64,000 bases of DNA from Desulfovibrio gilichinskyi. GTDB taxonomy: Bacteria; Desulfobacterota; Desulfovibrionia; Desulfovibrionales; Desulfovibrionaceae. Of this stretch, positions 56,240-64,000 are shown piece after piece. Below the pieces are notes generated by a model. That model made no database searches. It was not told the DNA's origin and saw only the letters and a list, made by a program, of their open reading frames with translations. The translations under genes were made by a program, and so were the position numbers. Position 1 is the stretch's first letter; each line of letters starts with the position of its first letter. The stretch covers positions 496,001-560,000 of the forward strand of contig NZ_FWZU01000003.1 of assembly GCF_900177375.1 (NCBI RefSeq), given 5' to 3'.

Positions 56240-58039
56240 TTAATAGAGGAACATTAATGCTGAGATCATTACAACCATATAAATAATGGTCATTCCCGCT
56301 CCCGCTCGTACGTAGTCGATAGTTTTGTAACCACCGGGACGCATAATAAGAGCGTTAACCTGATGAGTAGGCAGGACAAATGTGTTTGATGCGGCAACTG
56401 CAACAGTCAAAGCTGCAATACGCGGATCAACACCTGCACTGAGTGCCATATTCATCGATAGTGGAACCAGTAAAACCGTTGCTCCGACATTGGATGCAAC
56501 CAAAGTGAAAAAGGAAGTTAAGATTCCGATCGAGGTCAGTAAAACCAGAGGAGTCGGATGTCCGAGTGCAGCCATGAGCGTGTCTGCAATGAATTTAGCC
56601 GCGCCTGTGTTTTCAAATGCCATTCCGAGGGGAATAAGACCGCCCAGCAGGAAGACAGTCATCCAGTCGACAGACTGATATGCTTCGTCAATACTGAGTA
56701 CCTTTGTAAGAATCATGCCGAGTGCTCCGGCAAGCAGTGCAATGGAAAGCTGAACATGAAATCCTAAGATCATCACAAGTGAAACAGCCAGCCACATTAA
56801 TGCCACTTTAGCTTTTTCTGTGCGAAGAACTTCACCTTTCACTTCTTCAGTGAAGACAAAGTCAGGACGATCTTTCAGCAGATGGAACATTTCCCAGCGA
56901 CCGTGCAACAGCAGAGCATCACCGGACTCCAGTTTTATGCCTGTAAGGCCGCTCACAAAAAGTTTTTCTCCGCGGAAAATAGCCAAGGGAGAAACTTTAA
57001 AGCGGTCACGGATGCGAAGTTCAGTCAAAGTCTTCCCGACAAGTTCAGAACGCGGCGTGATAAGCCCTTCCATTATTCCTGCATTGTTAGGGGAGAGTTC
57101 TTCTGCAAAAGTTTTCAATTCAGCCTGCATTTCCCATCCAAGGTCTTCAGCCATGCTCAGAGCAAATTCCTTAGGCCCGACAACAGCTAAATGATCACCT
57201 GGCAGGATATCTTCCATTGCGTCAGGAGCAAATAGATGTGTTTTACCGTGGTCTCTGGCAATAGCAACAACTGTTGAAAAATAAATGGGGCGTAATTCAA
57301 GAGCATGCAAGTTGTTTTCATTCTTCCATGTTTTAGGAACATGTAATTCAAATAACGAACCTACACCGCCGTAAGTATTGCTGAGAAGATTGGACATAGG
57401 CCCGGAATTTTCATCAACATTTTTATTGGGGAGTATGAAACGTCCGAAAAGAATGAAATAAATGAGAGCTGATGCAACAAGAAGAAGACCTATCGGAGTG
57501 ACTCCGAATAAACCGAAAGGTTCATAGTGCTTGCCTCCTACGATCATAAGGTCGTTCAGCAGGATCAGAGGGCTGGAGCCGACAAGAGTCAAACATCCTC
57601 CGATAATTGCACAGAAACCCATCGGCATAAGCAAGCGTCCGATTGGAACACCTGTCTGATTACCGATACGTTTAGCCGCAGGCATAAATAAAGCTGCGGC
57701 CCCGATATTCTGCATGAATCCTGAAATGACGGCAACAGTTCCTGCTATCATTGTCATAATCCGTGTTTCGCTTTTTCCGGCAAAACGCAGGATTATTCTC
57801 GCCATAGTATTCATGACGCCGGTCTTATCCAGGCCGGCGCCAATAATGATTACAGCAATAATGGAAACAACGGCGTTACTGCTTAATCCGCTTATAGCCT
57901 GCTTTGGTGTCACAAGGCCAAGCAGCGGAAGTAGCACCATCATTATGATACCGACAACATCAACACGAACCCATTCGAATATGAACAATAAGACTGCGAA
58001 TGCGAGAACAGCCATAACTAAAATAATCTCAGGAGTCAT
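56240..58039 (-). CDS. SLC13/DASS-family permease with RCK-C domains
   Basis: A membrane transporter of the divalent-anion:Na+ symporter type fused to two cytoplasmic TrkA-C (RCK_C) domains. The 599-aa product has two groups of helices around a soluble middle (about 215-395), where the first RCK-C part reads LHALELRPIYFSTVVAIARDHGKTHLF and the second SELVGKTLTELRIRDRFKVSPLAIFR. Motifs MQNIGAAALFMPAAKRI and ASNVGATVLLVPLS match the two-fold repeat with the SNT/NTS-like clamp. Substrate (sulfate, dicarboxylate or other) is unknown. Neighbours are a UspA-like protein and nhaB. Confidence 0.85.
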   Translation of the reverse strand: MTPEIILVMAVLAFAVLLFIFEWVRVDVVGIIMMVLLPLLGLVTPKQAISGLSSNAVVSIIAVIIIGAGLDKTGVMNTMARIILRFAGKSETRIMTMIAGTVAVISGFMQNIGAAALFMPAAKRIGNQTGVPIGRLLMPMGFCAIIGGCLTLVGSSPLILLNDLMIVGGKHYEPFGLFGVTPIGLLLVASALIYFILFGRFILPNKNVDENSGPMSNLLSNTYGGVGSLFELHVPKTWKNENNLHALELRPIYFSTVVAIARDHGKTHLFAPDAMEDILPGDHLAVVGPKEFALSMAEDLGWEMQAELKTFAEELSPNNAGIMEGLITPRSELVGKTLTELRIRDRFKVSPLAIFRGEKLFVSGLTGIKLESGDALLLHGRWEMFHLLKDRPDFVFTEEVKGEVLRTEKAKVALMWLAVSLVMILGFHVQLSIALLAGALGMILTKVLSIDEAYQSVDWMTVFLLGGLIPLGMAFENTGAAKFIADTLMAALGHPTPLVLLTSIGILTSFFTLVASNVGATVLLVPLSMNMALSAGVDPRIAALTVAVAASNTFVLPTHQVNALIMRPGGYKTIDYVRAGAGMTIIYMVVMISALMFLY

Positions 58040-58087: not shown

Positions 58088-58699
58088 CTATTTCACCCGT
58101 AGCATTGCATGTGTATATACAGGGATTGCCTGCCGTTTTGCTTGATTTGTGGCGACATCTTCCATTACGTATCTGAACTCTTTGTCGTTGCTGTGAAGTT
58201 CTGCAACGACAGAATCTTCTGCTCCGGTTTTAATCAGATGTGCAAAGAGTAATCCTGCTTCTGAGGCTTTAGCGGAGAAGCTGGCGATGTTGTCTTCACA
58301 TTCATTGCGGAAATTATTGAAGTTTGTTCCTTTTTCATCAAGGTTCAAGGCGACCAGACTGCTTCTGGTTTTAGCGGCCATTTCAACTGCGTAGCTTACT
58401 ACATTTCCGGAGAAAGCAGATCCTTTACTGACAACAAGAATTTTGCAGCCAGGGCGGGTTGATTCGGAAATAGCACTGACGATCTTGTCGTTTTCAACTT
58501 GTGCTGTTGCAGAATTCTGGTCTTTGGTCCGAAAACGGTTTAGAAATGTTTTCAAGAAAAACCCCCTTTCTTTATTATCACATGATGACTGGTTACGATT
58601 GATGGCCCATGTTCCTACACTACAGGTGTTGCATTGATTTTCGACCATTGCTTTGTAGTGCCTGTCCAAAAAACTTTTTACATTCTGTACTGTAGCCAT
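58088..58699 (-). CDS. UspA-like protein with Cys-rich N-terminus
   Basis: The 203-aa product has an N-terminal segment of about 80 residues with CNTC (residues 23-26) and another Cys at 40, then a UspA-type alpha/beta fold: CKILVVSKGSAFSGNVVSYAVEMAAKTRSSLVALNL, and an end lacking the GxxGxxxxxG ATP motif expected in true UspA. It may be a degenerate universal stress protein. It starts ATGGCTACAG at 58699 behind GAGGAGGGAAC, and the next gene is the SLC13 permease (gap 48 bp), so the pair is probably cotranscribed. Confidence 0.7.
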   Translation of the reverse strand: MATVQNVKSFLDRHYKAMVENQCNTCSVGTWAINRNQSSCDNKERGFFLKTFLNRFRTKDQNSATAQVENDKIVSAISESTRPGCKILVVSKGSAFSGNVVSYAVEMAAKTRSSLVALNLDEKGTNFNNFRNECEDNIASFSAKASEAGLLFAHLIKTGAEDSVVAELHSNDKEFRYVMEDVATNQAKRQAIPVYTHAMLRVK

Positions 58700-59246
58700 G
58701 TTCCCTCCTCATTTTAAGATCATTGACGTCGTTATCGTATAACTATCAAAACTCATGCCAAGTATTCTTTTGATCGTAATTACTTAAAATTGTTAGTTTT
58801 ATATAAAAACAGCATTGATCACTCACACACATGTGTTGCAAATAGAAACGAACTTTTAAGTTAAAACTTCAAAATAACCATATATACTGCATTAACACTT
58901 GTTTATGATGTGTTGCTTTTTGCAATACTAGTTCATTTATTCACAATGTAATTTGGGATGAAATGCATATTTAGGCATTATTAATAGCTTGTTAAAATAT
59001 AAATATAGATGCTAAATAGTGATATTTAATTAATTAAGATTATTAAACTAGTTAGTTAACTGTAATTTGAATTTAAGATGTTTTTAAAGAATAGCGATTC
59101 ATCTGACTTTGTTTCATAATGCAACATTAACACGTCAGCGGATTAATGGTATTCAAAAAAAAGATATTAAAAGGTTTTTTAAAGATATAATCATATGCAA
59201 ATGGCACCGTTTATCAGCTTGTTTTTAAGGCAGGAGAAATAGAAAA
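58700..59246. other. AT-rich gap upstream of the Lon-receiver gene
   Basis: These 547 bp contain no gene. They have a repeat of TGTGTTGC (near 58832 and 58911) with a GCTTTTTGC-type small stem, and many short AT palindromes such as TTTTAAGTTAAAA. It separates divergent genes and probably holds both promoters; none is clear. Confidence 0.45.
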
Positions 59247-61295
59247 ATGAAGTGGTTTCGTAAAAAAAATGCTGAAGAATCGCCGTCTGAGCCTAAATCT
59301 CCTTCTGAAAAGAAAGAGCAAGTTGAACTTAAAGACCCAGTTATAGAAAATTTGCACAAGCGCATTGAAGAAGCATATCTTCCTGACCAAATTCTTCCTG
59401 TGGCGCGGGATGAATATGAAAGGCTGCTCAAGACTGAGAAGTCTTCCCCGGAATTTGCTATCGGGCAGAATTATCTTGAATTTATTCTTTCTCTGCCTTG
59501 GAATTCTACAACTAAAGATGATCTTGATCTGACACGGGCAAAAGAAGTTTTGGATGCGCGTCACTATGGTTTAAGCCCGGTTAAAGAGCGCATTTTAGAA
59601 TTTTTAGCAGTTAAAAGTCTGCATAGTCGCCAGCAGGCGAAGATTCTGCTTGCCGATGATGAAGTTATAGCGCGCGAAAATCTTTCGATAATTTTTGAGC
59701 AGGACGGCTTCGCAGTTCGGGCTGTTGCAAACGGGATTGAAGCTGTCGCCGCTATGGAAAATGATCCTGCTGATATTTTAGTTACCGACTTGAAAATGGA
59801 CGGAATGGACGGGCTTCAGCTTTTGCAGGAAGTCCGCCGTCGCTGGCCGGACACCGGCGTAATTATGCTTACCGGATACGCGACTGTGAAGTCCGCTGTT
59901 ACTGCAATGATGAAAGGGGCGGATCAATATCTAGGGAAGCCCGTTAACCTGACGAAGCTTCGTGATTACGTCATGGAACTGCTTACTAAAAATCAGCGCA
60001 TTCAGCATTTGCGCGGCCCGGTTCTCTGTTTCTCCGGCCCTCCAGGTACAGGTAAAACTTCAATCGGTAAGGCGATAGCAGAGGCTATGGGGCGTAAATT
60101 CTTCCGCTTGTCACTTGCAGGGCTTCGGGACGAAGCAGAACTGCGTGGACACCGCCGTACATATGTCGGCGCAATGGCCGGAAGGATTTTGCAGGGAATC
60201 GAGAAAGCCGGAGTTCGCAATCCTGTTATAATGCTGGATGAAATGGATAAGGTTATTCAGGATTTTAAAGGAGATGCAACCTCCGTGCTGCTTGAAATTC
60301 TCGATCCTGAACAGAACAGTTCTTTTGTGGATAATTATCTAGGGCTTCCGTTCGATCTTTCTGGTGTTCTTTTTATTGCCACTGCAAATATGGTTGAACG
60401 TCTGCCAGCTCCACTGCGTGACAGGATGGAGGAAATTGAATTCTCCAGTTATACGCTGAGTGAAAAGCAGCAAATCGCCACACGTTTTTTGATTCCTGAA
60501 CAGCTCAGGCAGCATGGGCTGAGCCCGAAGGATTTTGATCTGCTTCCGGAAGCTGTACGAAGTCTGATTGTTGATTACACGCGCGAAGCAGGACTTCGCG
60601 GCTTAGAAAAGCAGGTTGCTTCTCTTTGCCGTAAATTAGCAAGGAAGACCCTCGCAGACGGTGAAGGGGCTGGTGTTCTGACGGTTGAAGCTGCTGACAT
60701 TAAAGAGATCATGGGAACGACTCCTCATTTTAATACTGCGGCTAAAACTGAACCGAAAGTTGGACTTGCTACAGGGCTGGTCTGGACAGAGAACGGCGGA
60801 GAAATCTTATTTGTAGAAGCTGTGAAGATGAATGGTAACAAGCAGCTGATTCTTACCGGATCTCTCGGCGAAGTATTGCGGGAGTCAGCACAGACTTCTT
60901 TGAGTTTTCTGCGCAGTAATGCTGAAAGGTTTAACCTTGCGCCTGATTTTTTTGAGGCTTCGGATATACATGTCCATTTACCTGCCGGAGCGGTGACTAA
61001 AGAAGGGCCGTCAGCGGGGATTACTATAGCGATTGCCATTCTTTCAATGCTTACAGACCGCCCCGTCAGGCCTGATGTGGCTTTCAGCGGAGAAATCTCG
61101 CTGCTTGGTGAAGTTTTGCCTGTCGCAGGGGTGCGGGAAAAGGTTATGGCTGCGGCTCGTGCAGGCATTAAAACGGTTATTCTGCCGAAACAATGCGATT
61201 ACGCTGTGCGCAGTATTGAACCGGAAGTGCTCGAAAATATCGAAATCAGGCTTGTCGAAAGGCTGGACGAAGTTGTGGAACTGGCACTTATTTAG
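59247..61295 (+). CDS. Lon-family ATP-dependent protease with an inserted response-regulator receiver domain
   Basis: The 682-aa product is a Lon-type AAA+ serine protease. After a charged start, residues about 31-125 match only the end of the Lon N-terminal helical part (YLEFILSLPWN, HYGLSPVKERILEFLAV). A complete receiver domain (about 131-245: D137/D138, phospho-acceptor D181, T209, K231) follows and replaces the short linker before the AAA+ domain: Walker A GPPGTGKT 264-271, Walker B MLDEMD (D331, E332). The protease domain has Ser589 in EGPSAG and Lys632, the same 43-residue spacing as E. coli Lon. The usual N-terminal substrate domain is missing. Phosphorylation may switch unfoldase or protease activity. 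The stop overlaps the convergent regulator's stop by 3 bases. Confidence 0.85.
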   Translation: MKWFRKKNAEESPSEPKSPSEKKEQVELKDPVIENLHKRIEEAYLPDQILPVARDEYERLLKTEKSSPEFAIGQNYLEFILSLPWNSTTKDDLDLTRAKEVLDARHYGLSPVKERILEFLAVKSLHSRQQAKILLADDEVIARENLSIIFEQDGFAVRAVANGIEAVAAMENDPADILVTDLKMDGMDGLQLLQEVRRRWPDTGVIMLTGYATVKSAVTAMMKGADQYLGKPVNLTKLRDYVMELLTKNQRIQHLRGPVLCFSGPPGTGKTSIGKAIAEAMGRKFFRLSLAGLRDEAELRGHRRTYVGAMAGRILQGIEKAGVRNPVIMLDEMDKVIQDFKGDATSVLLEILDPEQNSSFVDNYLGLPFDLSGVLFIATANMVERLPAPLRDRMEEIEFSSYTLSEKQQIATRFLIPEQLRQHGLSPKDFDLLPEAVRSLIVDYTREAGLRGLEKQVASLCRKLARKTLADGEGAGVLTVEAADIKEIMGTTPHFNTAAKTEPKVGLATGLVWTENGGEILFVEAVKMNGNKQLILTGSLGEVLRESAQTSLSFLRSNAERFNLAPDFFEASDIHVHLPAGAVTKEGPSAGITIAIAILSMLTDRPVRPDVAFSGEISLLGEVLPVAGVREKVMAAARAGIKTVILPKQCDYAVRSIEPEVLENIEIRLVERLDEVVELALI

Positions 61296-62638
61296 CTGTC
61301 TTCATTAATCATATTATGGCGTTTCATTTTTCGCCAGAGTGAAACTCTGTCAATGCCCAGAATTTTAGCGGCTTGGGTTTTGTTGCCACCGGTTGCGAGC
61401 ATGACTTTTTCAATGTGCCTATGTTCCATTTCTTCGAGAGTCTGTAGCGGATTTTCAACAGGAATATTACGTACATCATAGGGAAGCAGGTCTGGAGTGA
61501 AAACAGTTCCTTTGGCAAGGGCCAGTGCCCGCTGCGCAATGTTTTCAAGTTCGCGTACATTTCCGGGAAAGTCATGGTTCATCAGGATGTCCAGAGTTTC
61601 CTGAGATATGGTTGTAATTGTCTGCTCAGGTGTTCGATGCTGTTCCAAAAAATGGCCCACAAGTACGGGAATATCTTCCCTATGTTTTCTAAGCGGCGGA
61701 GCTGACAGAGTCACAACATTTAAGCGGTAAAATAAGTCCTGACGGAAGGTTCCTTTTTCAACATTTTCTTTTAGATCGCAGTTTGTTGCTGAAATAATGC
61801 GGATGTTAACCGGTATTTCCTGCGTTCCGCCTACTCGCAAAAAGGTTCGCTCCTGTAGAACGCGCAGCAGTTTAACCTGCATGTTAAGCGGCAATTCACT
61901 CATTTCGTCAAAGAAGACCGTTCCGCCGTCTGCAACTTCAAGAATCCCTTTTTGTCCGCGTTGCGCTCCGGTGAAAGCTTCTCTCTCATGGCCGAACAAT
62001 TCTTTATCCATCAGTTCCGCGGTGAATGTGCCGCAGTTGATGGCCATAAACCTTTCGTGCGACCTGTCACTTAGCATGTGAATACCGCGCGCAATCAGCT
62101 CTTTACCGGTTCCTGTTTCACCTTGAATAAGAACATTGCAGTTCATGGTGGCAAGCTGTTGGACAGTTTTTTTCAGTCGCAGTATGGATTCACTCTGCCC
62201 GACTAACGGAAAATCCTGTTTACCCTGAGCTATAACCTGTCTGAGGCGTAGAACTTCAACGGATAAAGCCCGTTGTTCCAGAGCCTTGCGCACCTGCATG
62301 CGGAGTTCGTCAAGGTTGAACGGCTTGGCAATGTAGGAATGAGCTCCTTTTTGCATGGCAGTAACAGCCGTTGATACAGTGGCATGTCCCGTAATCACAA
62401 TTACTTCAGTTGTCGGCTGCATCTCCTTGATGTGTTCAAGAATTTGGATACCGTTCATTCGCGGCATCATCAAATCAGTCAGGACCAGTTCGTATTCGTC
62501 TTTTTCCATTTGTTGCAGAGCTGCCATACCGGATTCAACCGCAACGGCGTGATACCCCTCCGCTGTCAGAACGTGCACAAGATTTTCGCGGGCAATGCGT
62601 TCATCATCAACTATAAGAATATTGGCATGACTGATCAT
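61292..62638 (-). CDS. Sigma-54-dependent response regulator (NtrC/AtoC type)
   Basis: The 448-aa product has a receiver domain (D11/D12, phospho-acceptor D55, T83, K105), an AAA+ sigma-54 activator domain (about 145-370; Walker A GETGTGKE 173-180, FFDE 242-245) and a C-terminal Fis-type helix-turn-helix (GNKTQAAKILGIDRVSLWRKMK). The sigma-54-contact loop reads EAFTGA (220-225) where GAFTGA is usual; FTGA is intact. It overlaps the upstream kinase gene by ATGA, and converges with the Lon-receiver gene. Confidence 0.93.
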   Translation of the reverse strand: MISHANILIVDDERIARENLVHVLTAEGYHAVAVESGMAALQQMEKDEYELVLTDLMMPRMNGIQILEHIKEMQPTTEVIVITGHATVSTAVTAMQKGAHSYIAKPFNLDELRMQVRKALEQRALSVEVLRLRQVIAQGKQDFPLVGQSESILRLKKTVQQLATMNCNVLIQGETGTGKELIARGIHMLSDRSHERFMAINCGTFTAELMDKELFGHEREAFTGAQRGQKGILEVADGGTVFFDEMSELPLNMQVKLLRVLQERTFLRVGGTQEIPVNIRIISATNCDLKENVEKGTFRQDLFYRLNVVTLSAPPLRKHREDIPVLVGHFLEQHRTPEQTITTISQETLDILMNHDFPGNVRELENIAQRALALAKGTVFTPDLLPYDVRNIPVENPLQTLEEMEHRHIEKVMLATGGNKTQAAKILGIDRVSLWRKMKRHNMINEDS

Positions 62639-64000
62639 ACGATGGAGTCCTTTGCCAATGGCAGGTGGATAAAAAAGGTTGTGCCGTTACCGGGAGTACT
62701 TTCTGTACGGATGCGTCCCTTATGTTTTTCAATAATGCCGTATACTATGTATAGTCCGAGGCCCGTGCCTTGTCCTACTTCCTTGGTTGAGAAAAACGGG
62801 TCGAAAATACGCTCTAAGGTTTCAGTATCCATGCCTATTCCGGTGTCCTGCACAGTTATCAGAGCTTCCTCATTTTGAACTGTTCCACTGATAAAGATAG
62901 ATCCGGCATTGTTGTCGATGGCCTGAACTGCATTGATGATAAGATTGATAAATGCTTCCTGCAATCGTTGCCGATCGGCTTGTATTAAAATTTTATCCGC
63001 GATGTCGGTTCTTATTGAAATATCTGACGGAACCTGACTTGATACAAGGCGCACGGCTGAATTGACTACAGCTTCAAGATGAGTCGGAGCCGGCGAATAT
63101 TCGCGCTCGCGGGAAAATTCAAGTAATCCTTTGACTATATCGCGTGATCTTAATGTTTCCTGTTCAATATTGTGCATCATTTTATCTGCAAGTGCATCTC
63201 TGCTTTGCGTGCTTTCCATTAAAATCTGGCAGGAAGTGGAAATGTTGTTCAGCGGATTGTTTAGCTGGTGAGCTATGCCTGAAGCCAGCGTTCCTATAGA
63301 AGAAAGTTTTTGAGCTTGGACCAGCTGTCTGCGCCGTTTTGTTAATTGCTCAACCATAGAATTAAGCGCGACAAAGACCTGCTGAACTTCATCGTGTGCG
63401 TTTTTGATGGGAAGAGCTTCAAAAGTACCAAGGGAAATACGTTTTGTCGCTTCCTGCACCAGACGTAGCGGAAGAAGAATATTTGAGCTGACAAACATAA
63501 CCAAAATTAAAACAACAATGGCCAATGCCACTATGGAAATTGCCAGATTGGTACGCAAGTCATTATTAATATTTAAAATGTTTTCACGCTCAAAACGGGC
63601 AATGGCCCTCGAATGTTCGACTATTGCCTGACCGTATTCACGAAGAAGAGTCGGTTCTTCGCTGAGTTTGTAGGTATTACTTGTTTTAATTTCAGAAGAA
63701 ATTTTACCAATTAATTCACGGTAATTGATTAAATTCTTACTAAGTGAAGCCCCATGCTGTTTTACCTCCGGCTGAGTAAAGTCCGCCATAAGCGATTGCA
63801 GTAGCGTTTCAGCCCGCTCAAGATACTCGATTCCCTGTGAGAATACGGTTGAGTCGTGATACAGAAACAGGTTTTTTTCTGCCCTGCGGACTTCAAGGAT
63901 CAAATTGCTGAGGTCGTCAACACGTTCAATCAGCAGGACTTCCCGTTCCAGATGAATAGTATTTGTGTATGAAAGTATGCCGATACATCCAAAACAGATG
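62635..64000 (-). CDS. Membrane sensor histidine kinase (5' end outside window)
   Basis: The frame is open to the window edge, so the gene is incomplete at its start. Within the 455 visible codons are a first membrane helix near the edge (ICFGCIGILSY), an extracytoplasmic helical region, a second membrane helix (LAISIVALAIVVLILVMF), a HAMP linker, the HisKA domain with the phospho-His in SGIAHQLNNPLNN (codon at 63268-63270) and the ATPase domain with NLIINAVQAID, DTGIGM and GTGLGL boxes. It pairs with the overlapping sigma-54 regulator and may also phosphorylate the Lon receiver domain. Confidence 0.93.
   Translation of the reverse strand, partial: ICFGCIGILSYTNTIHLEREVLLIERVDDLSNLILEVRRAEKNLFLYHDSTVFSQGIEYLERAETLLQSLMADFTQPEVKQHGASLSKNLINYRELIGKISSEIKTSNTYKLSEEPTLLREYGQAIVEHSRAIARFERENILNINNDLRTNLAISIVALAIVVLILVMFVSSNILLPLRLVQEATKRISLGTFEALPIKNAHDEVQQVFVALNSMVEQLTKRRRQLVQAQKLSSIGTLASGIAHQLNNPLNNISTSCQILMESTQSRDALADKMMHNIEQETLRSRDIVKGLLEFSREREYSPAPTHLEAVVNSAVRLVSSQVPSDISIRTDIADKILIQADRQRLQEAFINLIINAVQAIDNNAGSIFISGTVQNEEALITVQDTGIGMDTETLERIFDPFFSTKEVGQGTGLGLYIVYGIIEKHKGRIRTESTPGNGTTFFIHLPLAKDSIV

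Follow-up and report, generated by a model that had tools for sequence, protein, structure and literature searches.

Two-component systems mostly deliver their output through DNA binding or second-messenger enzymes. Two-component control of proteolysis is known from RssB and CpdR, which serve ClpXP as separate adaptors, CpdR bearing a receiver (REC) domain. RssB is a REC adaptor that delivers substrates to ClpXP (PMC7226468). NtrC-type sigma-54 regulators have an N-terminal REC attached to an AAA+ ring ATPase and deliver their output as transcription. The closest described case of a receiver combined with a protease is DVU3303 of Desulfovibrio vulgaris. In 2011 it was presented as a regulator containing a Lon protease that "may require phosphorylation", and as a part of a three-component system that places it beside a histidine kinase and a sigma-54 regulator and has UspA-type and transporter genes as its targets (PMC3333781). 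According to the same paper, Thioalkalivibrio, Dechloromonas and Thermodesulfovibrio have relatives of the partner regulator, most of them accompanied by a Lon regulator. DVU3303-3305 appear as one operon in a listing that also gives the targets of DVU3305 (PMC4641369), and in 2023 the three genes were reported to impair fitness in chlorate, their pairwise cofitness exceeding 0.9, and a link to the anion transporter DVU3299 was suggested (PMC10102598). A preliminary description of the locus studied here regarded its mechanism as undescribed. This was true in part: the architecture and the same hypothesis had been in print since 2011, and the joint function, deduced from fitness, since 2023 (PMC3333781, PMC10102598), while in the literature searched, with few subscription papers, we found no phosphorylation, ATPase or proteolysis measurement of such a protein.

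The window, i.e., the whole 64,000-nt stretch of Desulfovibrio gilichinskyi DNA that was analysed, contains a gene (59247..61295, + strand; ORF, Pfam, NCBIfam) for a 682-aa protein of this kind, hereafter REC-Lon. It starts with the Lon 3-helix region and a helix with the invariant residues H106, G108, L109 and R115 (residues ~27-125; 59325..59621, +; structure and column alignment), followed by the receiver domain (residues 133-242; 59643..59972, +; PF00072, E 4.1e-27), the AAA+ core (residues 260-399; 60024..60443, +; PF00004) with Walker A at 264-272 and Walker B at 331-334, the lid (residues 422-472) and the Lon protease domain (Lon_C, residues 480-681; 60684..61289, +; PF05362, E 3.7e-72), which holds the S589/K632 dyad. 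The codon of D181, the predicted phospho-acceptor, lies at 59787-59789 (+). REC-Lon scored 692.2 bits against the NCBIfam Lon equivalog TIGR00763, above the cut-off of 608.05, and shares with the LonA proteases the Ser-Lys dyad, the AAA+ Walker A/B motifs and the lid; the N-terminal substrate-binding domain PF02190 of LonA is missing. On the side of the response regulators, the receiver has the acidic pair, the phospho-Asp, the Thr/Ser and the Lys. The 682-aa protein is thus a protease of the LonA type in which an intact receiver has been inserted ahead of the AAA+ P-loop. The ORF and Pfam results agree with the frame, coordinates and domain order given in the preliminary description, and its residue numbers (D137/D138, D181, T209, K231) were correct.

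REC-Lon is accompanied by a gene for a sigma-54 response regulator (REC - sigma-54 activator - Fis HTH by Pfam; 61292..62638, - strand), hereafter the partner, which is convergent to the REC-Lon gene and overlaps its end by 4 bases. Next to it lies a gene for a membrane sensor histidine kinase (HAMP-HisKA-HATPase by Pfam; 62635..64000, -), a longer reading of which starts past the window edge, at genome position C3:560053 (~64053 in window numbering). On the other side there are a divergent 203-aa gene (ORF; 58088..58699, -), for which no Pfam or NCBIfam match was obtained, and a gene for a CitMHS/SLC13-type transporter with a TrkA_C domain (Pfam; 56240..58039, -). The Desulfovibrio locus mentioned in the preliminary description, with a Lon-like gene near a kinase and a sigma-54 regulator, is real, namely DVU3303-3305, and the locus in the window has the same architecture (Pfam, locus), the assignment being by architecture and published description. 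It differs in the orientation of the REC-Lon gene, which here converges on the genes for the regulator and the kinase instead of sharing an operon with them. The 203-aa gene can be regarded, by position only, as the counterpart of the UspA-type neighbours described in D. vulgaris (PMC3333781). In D. alaskensis G20, broadly similar starvation fitness was reported for Dde_3711-3713, 3715, 3717 and 3718 (UspA-type proteins, kinases and a regulator; PMC5193443), and these genes may form a locus related to the one described here. The genome of D. gilichinskyi also holds a second kinase (G000:C3:58510-59745) that is 35% identical to the partner kinase in a match of full length.

Conservation was followed in orthologs of REC-Lon. 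Matches were found in 135 genomes, five of which (G079, G081, G203, G342, G504) are not among the fetched loci; the 130 fetched loci gave 127 full-length proteins, with three left out as broken-off genes. Identity to the 682-aa protein goes down to 45% in this set. Even so, D137, D181, K231 and P232 are present in 127/127 proteins, D138 is Asp in 125 and Glu in two, and T209 is Thr in 125 and Ser in two. No loss of receiver residues, in particular of D181, was thus seen, and from this pattern the receiver appears to be kept as an active one. As had been proposed, the ATPase motifs and the catalytic dyad are likewise intact: the Walker A residues G264, P265, P266, G267, G269, K270, T271 and S272, the Walker B residue D331, and S589 and K632 are each found in all 127 proteins.

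Comparison with ordinary Lon proteins located the insertion precisely. In a search of solved structures, B. subtilis Lon (3m6a) aligned through its residues 7-102 with residues 30-125 of REC-Lon and through its residues 104-531 with residues 253-682, and the receiver replaces one single residue of chain 3m6a_A. Alignment showed that the counterparts of residues 125 and 256 are separated by exactly 4 residues in 37 of 43 ordinary Lons (5, 6, 21, 21, 53 and 53 residues in the other six) vs. 130 residues in 120 of the 127 REC-Lons, 131 in five and 129 in two. The receiver follows the helix that bears H106, G108, L109, R115, L117, E118 and L120, all invariant over REC-Lon and ordinary Lon (48 rows, alignment A2), and is itself followed by strand 1 of the P-loop core; in other words, it stands where it had been placed initially, between the Lon helical region and Walker A, at the site of a short linker in ordinary Lon. 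The HxGL helix is part of the nucleotide-binding region in AAA+ proteins. The longer spacings of 21 or 53 residues, seen in four of the 43 ordinary Lons, fall in the same loop that holds the receiver in REC-Lon, and this loop may tolerate inserts.

REC-Lon shares the 3-helix region, AAA+ module, lid and Ser-Lys protease with the LonA proteins of E. coli, B. subtilis and Meiothermus, but it carries ~126 extra residues, the REC, before strand 1 and lacks the N-terminal globular domain and the long helix. The reduction of the N-terminal substrate domain was thereby borne out: PF02190 is absent in 5/5 REC-Lons and present in 3/3 ordinary Lons scanned, and the residues ahead of the PW motif number 83 in the median (range 43-207, n=127) in REC-Lons and 294-366 (n=43) in ordinary Lons. 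Six of the 127 REC-Lons have at least 150 residues there, counted from the first possible start codon. The 3-helix region is the sole part that REC-Lon keeps from the region before AAA+ of ordinary Lon. In Meiothermus Lon, a globular N-terminal domain is followed by a long helix, both take part in the proposed activation, and three helices form a tensegrity triangle that tethers the protomers (PMC10643698); the globular domain of Lon binds unfolded and degron-tagged proteins (PMC8087443). With the domain and the long helix gone, substrate capture and assembly control in REC-Lon are probably done differently than in ordinary Lon.

A search with a fragment spanning the junction showed that the arrangement helical region-REC-AAA+-Lon recurs in the taxonomic order and in the phylum. 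In the order, at least 89 genomes out of the 199 sampled gave a match at E<=1e-30, and in the phylum at least 51 of 395 did so at E<=1e-35. These are minimum counts, as scoring covered 13 and 6 candidates per genome, respectively (9 for the kinase). Nearly all of the matches cover both sides of the junction, and their occurrence in many genomes rules out chance or misassembly as the source of the fusion. In a wider scan aimed beyond the phylum, at least five loci (L224-L228) among the best 80 listed, which are mostly ordinary Lon, match across the junction; one of the five (L226) is from Desulfomicrobium, itself of the order Desulfovibrionales. The long match of a further locus (L231), considered as a sixth REC-Lon, turned out to come from a separate OmpR-like regulator. 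In the phylum around a gammaproteobacterial genome the fragment was found in 0 of 398 genomes, a weak negative given six candidates per genome and no positive control. REC-Lon is of a kind already in print and common in the order, and the gene in the window is another case of it. The genome of D. gilichinskyi also contains two nearly full Lon_C matches, in open frames of 817 and 844 aa, and two partial ones in frames of 839 and 825 aa.

The sensor kinase accompanies REC-Lon closely. Within the fetched stretches, a full-length relative of the partner regulator was found in 111 of the 127 loci, a kinase relative in 107 and an SLC13-type transporter in 46. In the 199 genomes of the order, with the kinase counted as present at an E exponent of -74 or lower, REC-Lon and kinase occur together in 80, REC-Lon alone in nine, the kinase alone in two and neither in 108 (Fisher p 1.8e-42, genome kinship being ignored). 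Among the nine exceptions, blastp does detect a kinase relative at the locus in five genomes (G083, G121, G122, G132, G143; L058-L061, L067), and the remaining G051, G066, G077 and G081 either are fragmentary assemblies or have the locus at a contig end. The two opposite cases (G146/L316, G112/L317) have kinase and regulator side by side with no REC-Lon in the stretch or in the genome scan. REC-Lon is therefore seldom present without the kinase, the kinase can persist without REC-Lon, and the REC-Lon branch is dispensable. In one of these two genomes (G146, a relative of the same family; stretch C1:3664000-3682000), NhaB is kept, but neither the 203-aa gene nor the SLC13 transporter is present in the stretch; this locus is apparently a natural loss of one branch.

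The two receivers of the locus are related. Among 30 RECs listed in the genome of D. gilichinskyi, the one closest to the REC of REC-Lon is that of the partner (100.2 bits, 47%), the next reaching 69.9 bits. We compared eight positions of alpha-1 (140, 141, 142, 144, 145, 148, 149 and 152), which we take to be kinase contacts. At these, REC-Lon matches the partner RECs at 0.47 and the 27 other RECs of its own genome at 0.08, vs. 0.46 and 0.34 at the remaining REC positions; the contrast is partly post hoc, as the eight positions were fixed after earlier comparison results. The background came from 28 loci, one of which gave no match, and of the resulting 27 rows five repeat a neighbour, leaving 22 distinct ones. 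N145 is found in 126/127 REC-Lons, 109/111 partners and 0/27 of the other own-genome RECs, and R239 in 116 REC-Lons, 98 partners and none of the others. The shared alpha-1 residues fit a single kinase for both regulators. RECs paired in one locus are barely more alike than pairs across loci (0.479 vs. 0.462), and the own partner REC ranks first in 5 of 111 loci, with a median rank of 34. Locus-specific co-variation thus appears weak, the signal is family-wide and may in part reflect common descent. In a REC tree, all 54 RECs of REC-Lons formed one clade, and 97 of 98 REC-Lon and partner RECs grouped with two others (with low support, 0.24 and 0.42), which is no more than suggestive of a single origin of the Lon receiver from the partner's REC stock.

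To place the receiver in the fold, we modelled REC-Lon as a monomer with AlphaFold2, the input being the window protein with four REC-Lons and 43 ordinary Lons. The model (pLDDT 87.8, pTM 0.82) had Lon structures as its top fold matches, with a TM-score of 0.91 (target-normalised) to B. subtilis Lon 3m6a, and the Lon fold is undisturbed in it. Helix 110-128 leads into the REC strand 132-136, while REC alpha-5 is predicted by DSSP as a long, 20-residue helix (235-254; 59949..60008, +) that leads to the AAA+ strand 259-263; the junction on the C-side is less certain, the pLDDT of residues 251-260 being only 64. The receiver is thus predicted to lie between two helices that lead into the AAA+ core. 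The linker 246-255 is very variable (mean entropy 2.96) and the insert length is nearly fixed, as expected for a helical coupling element.

Three lines of evidence favour a Lon motor under direct phospho-control: the conservation, the joint occurrence of REC-Lon and kinase, and the predicted insertion between two helices. We propose, with a probability of roughly 0.6, that REC-Lon is a phospho-controlled Lon and forms the second output of a branched two-component system, in which one kinase phosphorylates both regulators and the phosphorylated REC switches the Lon ring. It is probably the neighbouring sensor kinase that does this. The membrane kinase would phosphorylate the sigma-54 regulator and, at D181, REC-Lon; from the anatomy of the domain, phosphorylation would rearrange the alpha4-beta5-alpha5 face of the REC, and the change would pass via the alpha-5 helix and the pre-REC helix to the nucleotide-binding region and the neighbouring protomers. 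Ordinary Lon is tethered and regulated by its N-terminal domain and long helix; in REC-Lon, which lacks both, REC-REC pairing would take over their role. The ring would then go from idle to degrading and remove a protein opposing the response, and meanwhile the sigma-54 regulator would turn on transporter and stress genes. REC-Lon would in this way resemble the NtrC-type regulators, to which the partner belongs, in joining a REC to an AAA+ ring, but with an embedded REC and an expected proteolytic output, and it would differ from the ClpXP systems in having the REC built into the protease. We see even odds for the picture in which the receiver, clamped by two helices inside the motor, replaces the Lon N-terminal domain and long helix, with one kinase commanding at once transcription, via the sigma-54 regulator, and proteolysis, via the assembly of the Lon ring or its translocation.

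The main alternative, possible but rather unlikely, is that the receiver is a docking or delivery domain instead of a motor switch, recruiting substrates such as the partner regulator, through REC-REC pairing, or the kinase, and making REC-Lon a feedback protease on its own signalling partners. It would account for the loss of the substrate-binding N-domain along with the gain of a REC and for the closeness of the two RECs, and REC adaptors do deliver substrates to proteases, as in RssB-ClpXP (PMC7226468). However, negative feedback predicts opposite fitness for the protease and for the kinase and regulator, whereas in D. vulgaris the cofitness exceeds 0.9 (PMC10102598). This value agrees with a protease that acts positively in the pathway of the other two, but it could be a polar effect, DVU3303-3305 being listed as one operon (PMC4641369). 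Moreover, the nearly fixed length of the insert suits mechanical coupling more than a loose tether. The same regularity weakens a second proposal, an improbable one, that the REC is a phosphate sink that tunes the sigma-54 branch while the Lon part is constitutive: the residues shared on the usual kinase-facing helix would indeed bring competition for the kinase, yet a sink does not need a fixed position in the motor, and the insert is within one residue of 130 in 127/127 proteins. Very improbable, in our view, is a REC that is vestigial or merely structural in an otherwise ordinary stress Lon; the undisturbed Lon fold of the model would allow it, but the active-site residues are invariant or nearly so, unlike those of a vestigial REC.

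To our knowledge, direct phospho-gating has not been proven for any AAA+ protease. If the phospho-gating proposed here is true, REC-Lon would be a rare example of protein degradation controlled directly by phosphorylation, and nature would offer in it a design for switchable proteases. As the fusion occurs in at least 89 of the 199 sampled genomes of the order, DVU3303-type substrates and phospho-activation can be tested in genetically tractable species.

The region between the divergent 203-aa and REC-Lon genes was taken from 28 loci and aligned for 13 of them. A dyad, TGTTKCN4TGCAAY, occurs three times in the window (58835..59126): at 58835-58850, with one mismatch, at 58911-58926 and at 59110-59125. 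The dyads are conserved in the alignment of 13 regions, a shorter form being present three times in 10 of these 13 and twice in the other three. With one mismatch allowed, the window gives five matches, and 5 of 100 shuffles gave as many. Even with up to two mismatches, the dyad was not found in the stretch around the start of the kinase gene (L315). A sigma-54-like -24/-12 element, TGGCATGN4TTGAT (58745..58760, -), identified by eye in the alignment and directed towards the transporter operon, is present in 6 of the 13 aligned regions; it is weak alone, as 39 of 100 window shuffles gave at least one match. The strict sigma-54 consensus GG-N10-GC showed no clear excess, with 1/28 regions positive towards REC-Lon and 3/28 towards the other gene at a shuffle rate of 0.055 per strand. 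The dyads may be binding sites of the partner regulator. Exact matches number six in the genome, vs. none for the reversed-pattern control; two of the six lie in this intergenic region, and the other four (L309, L310, L313, L314) could mark a small regulon.
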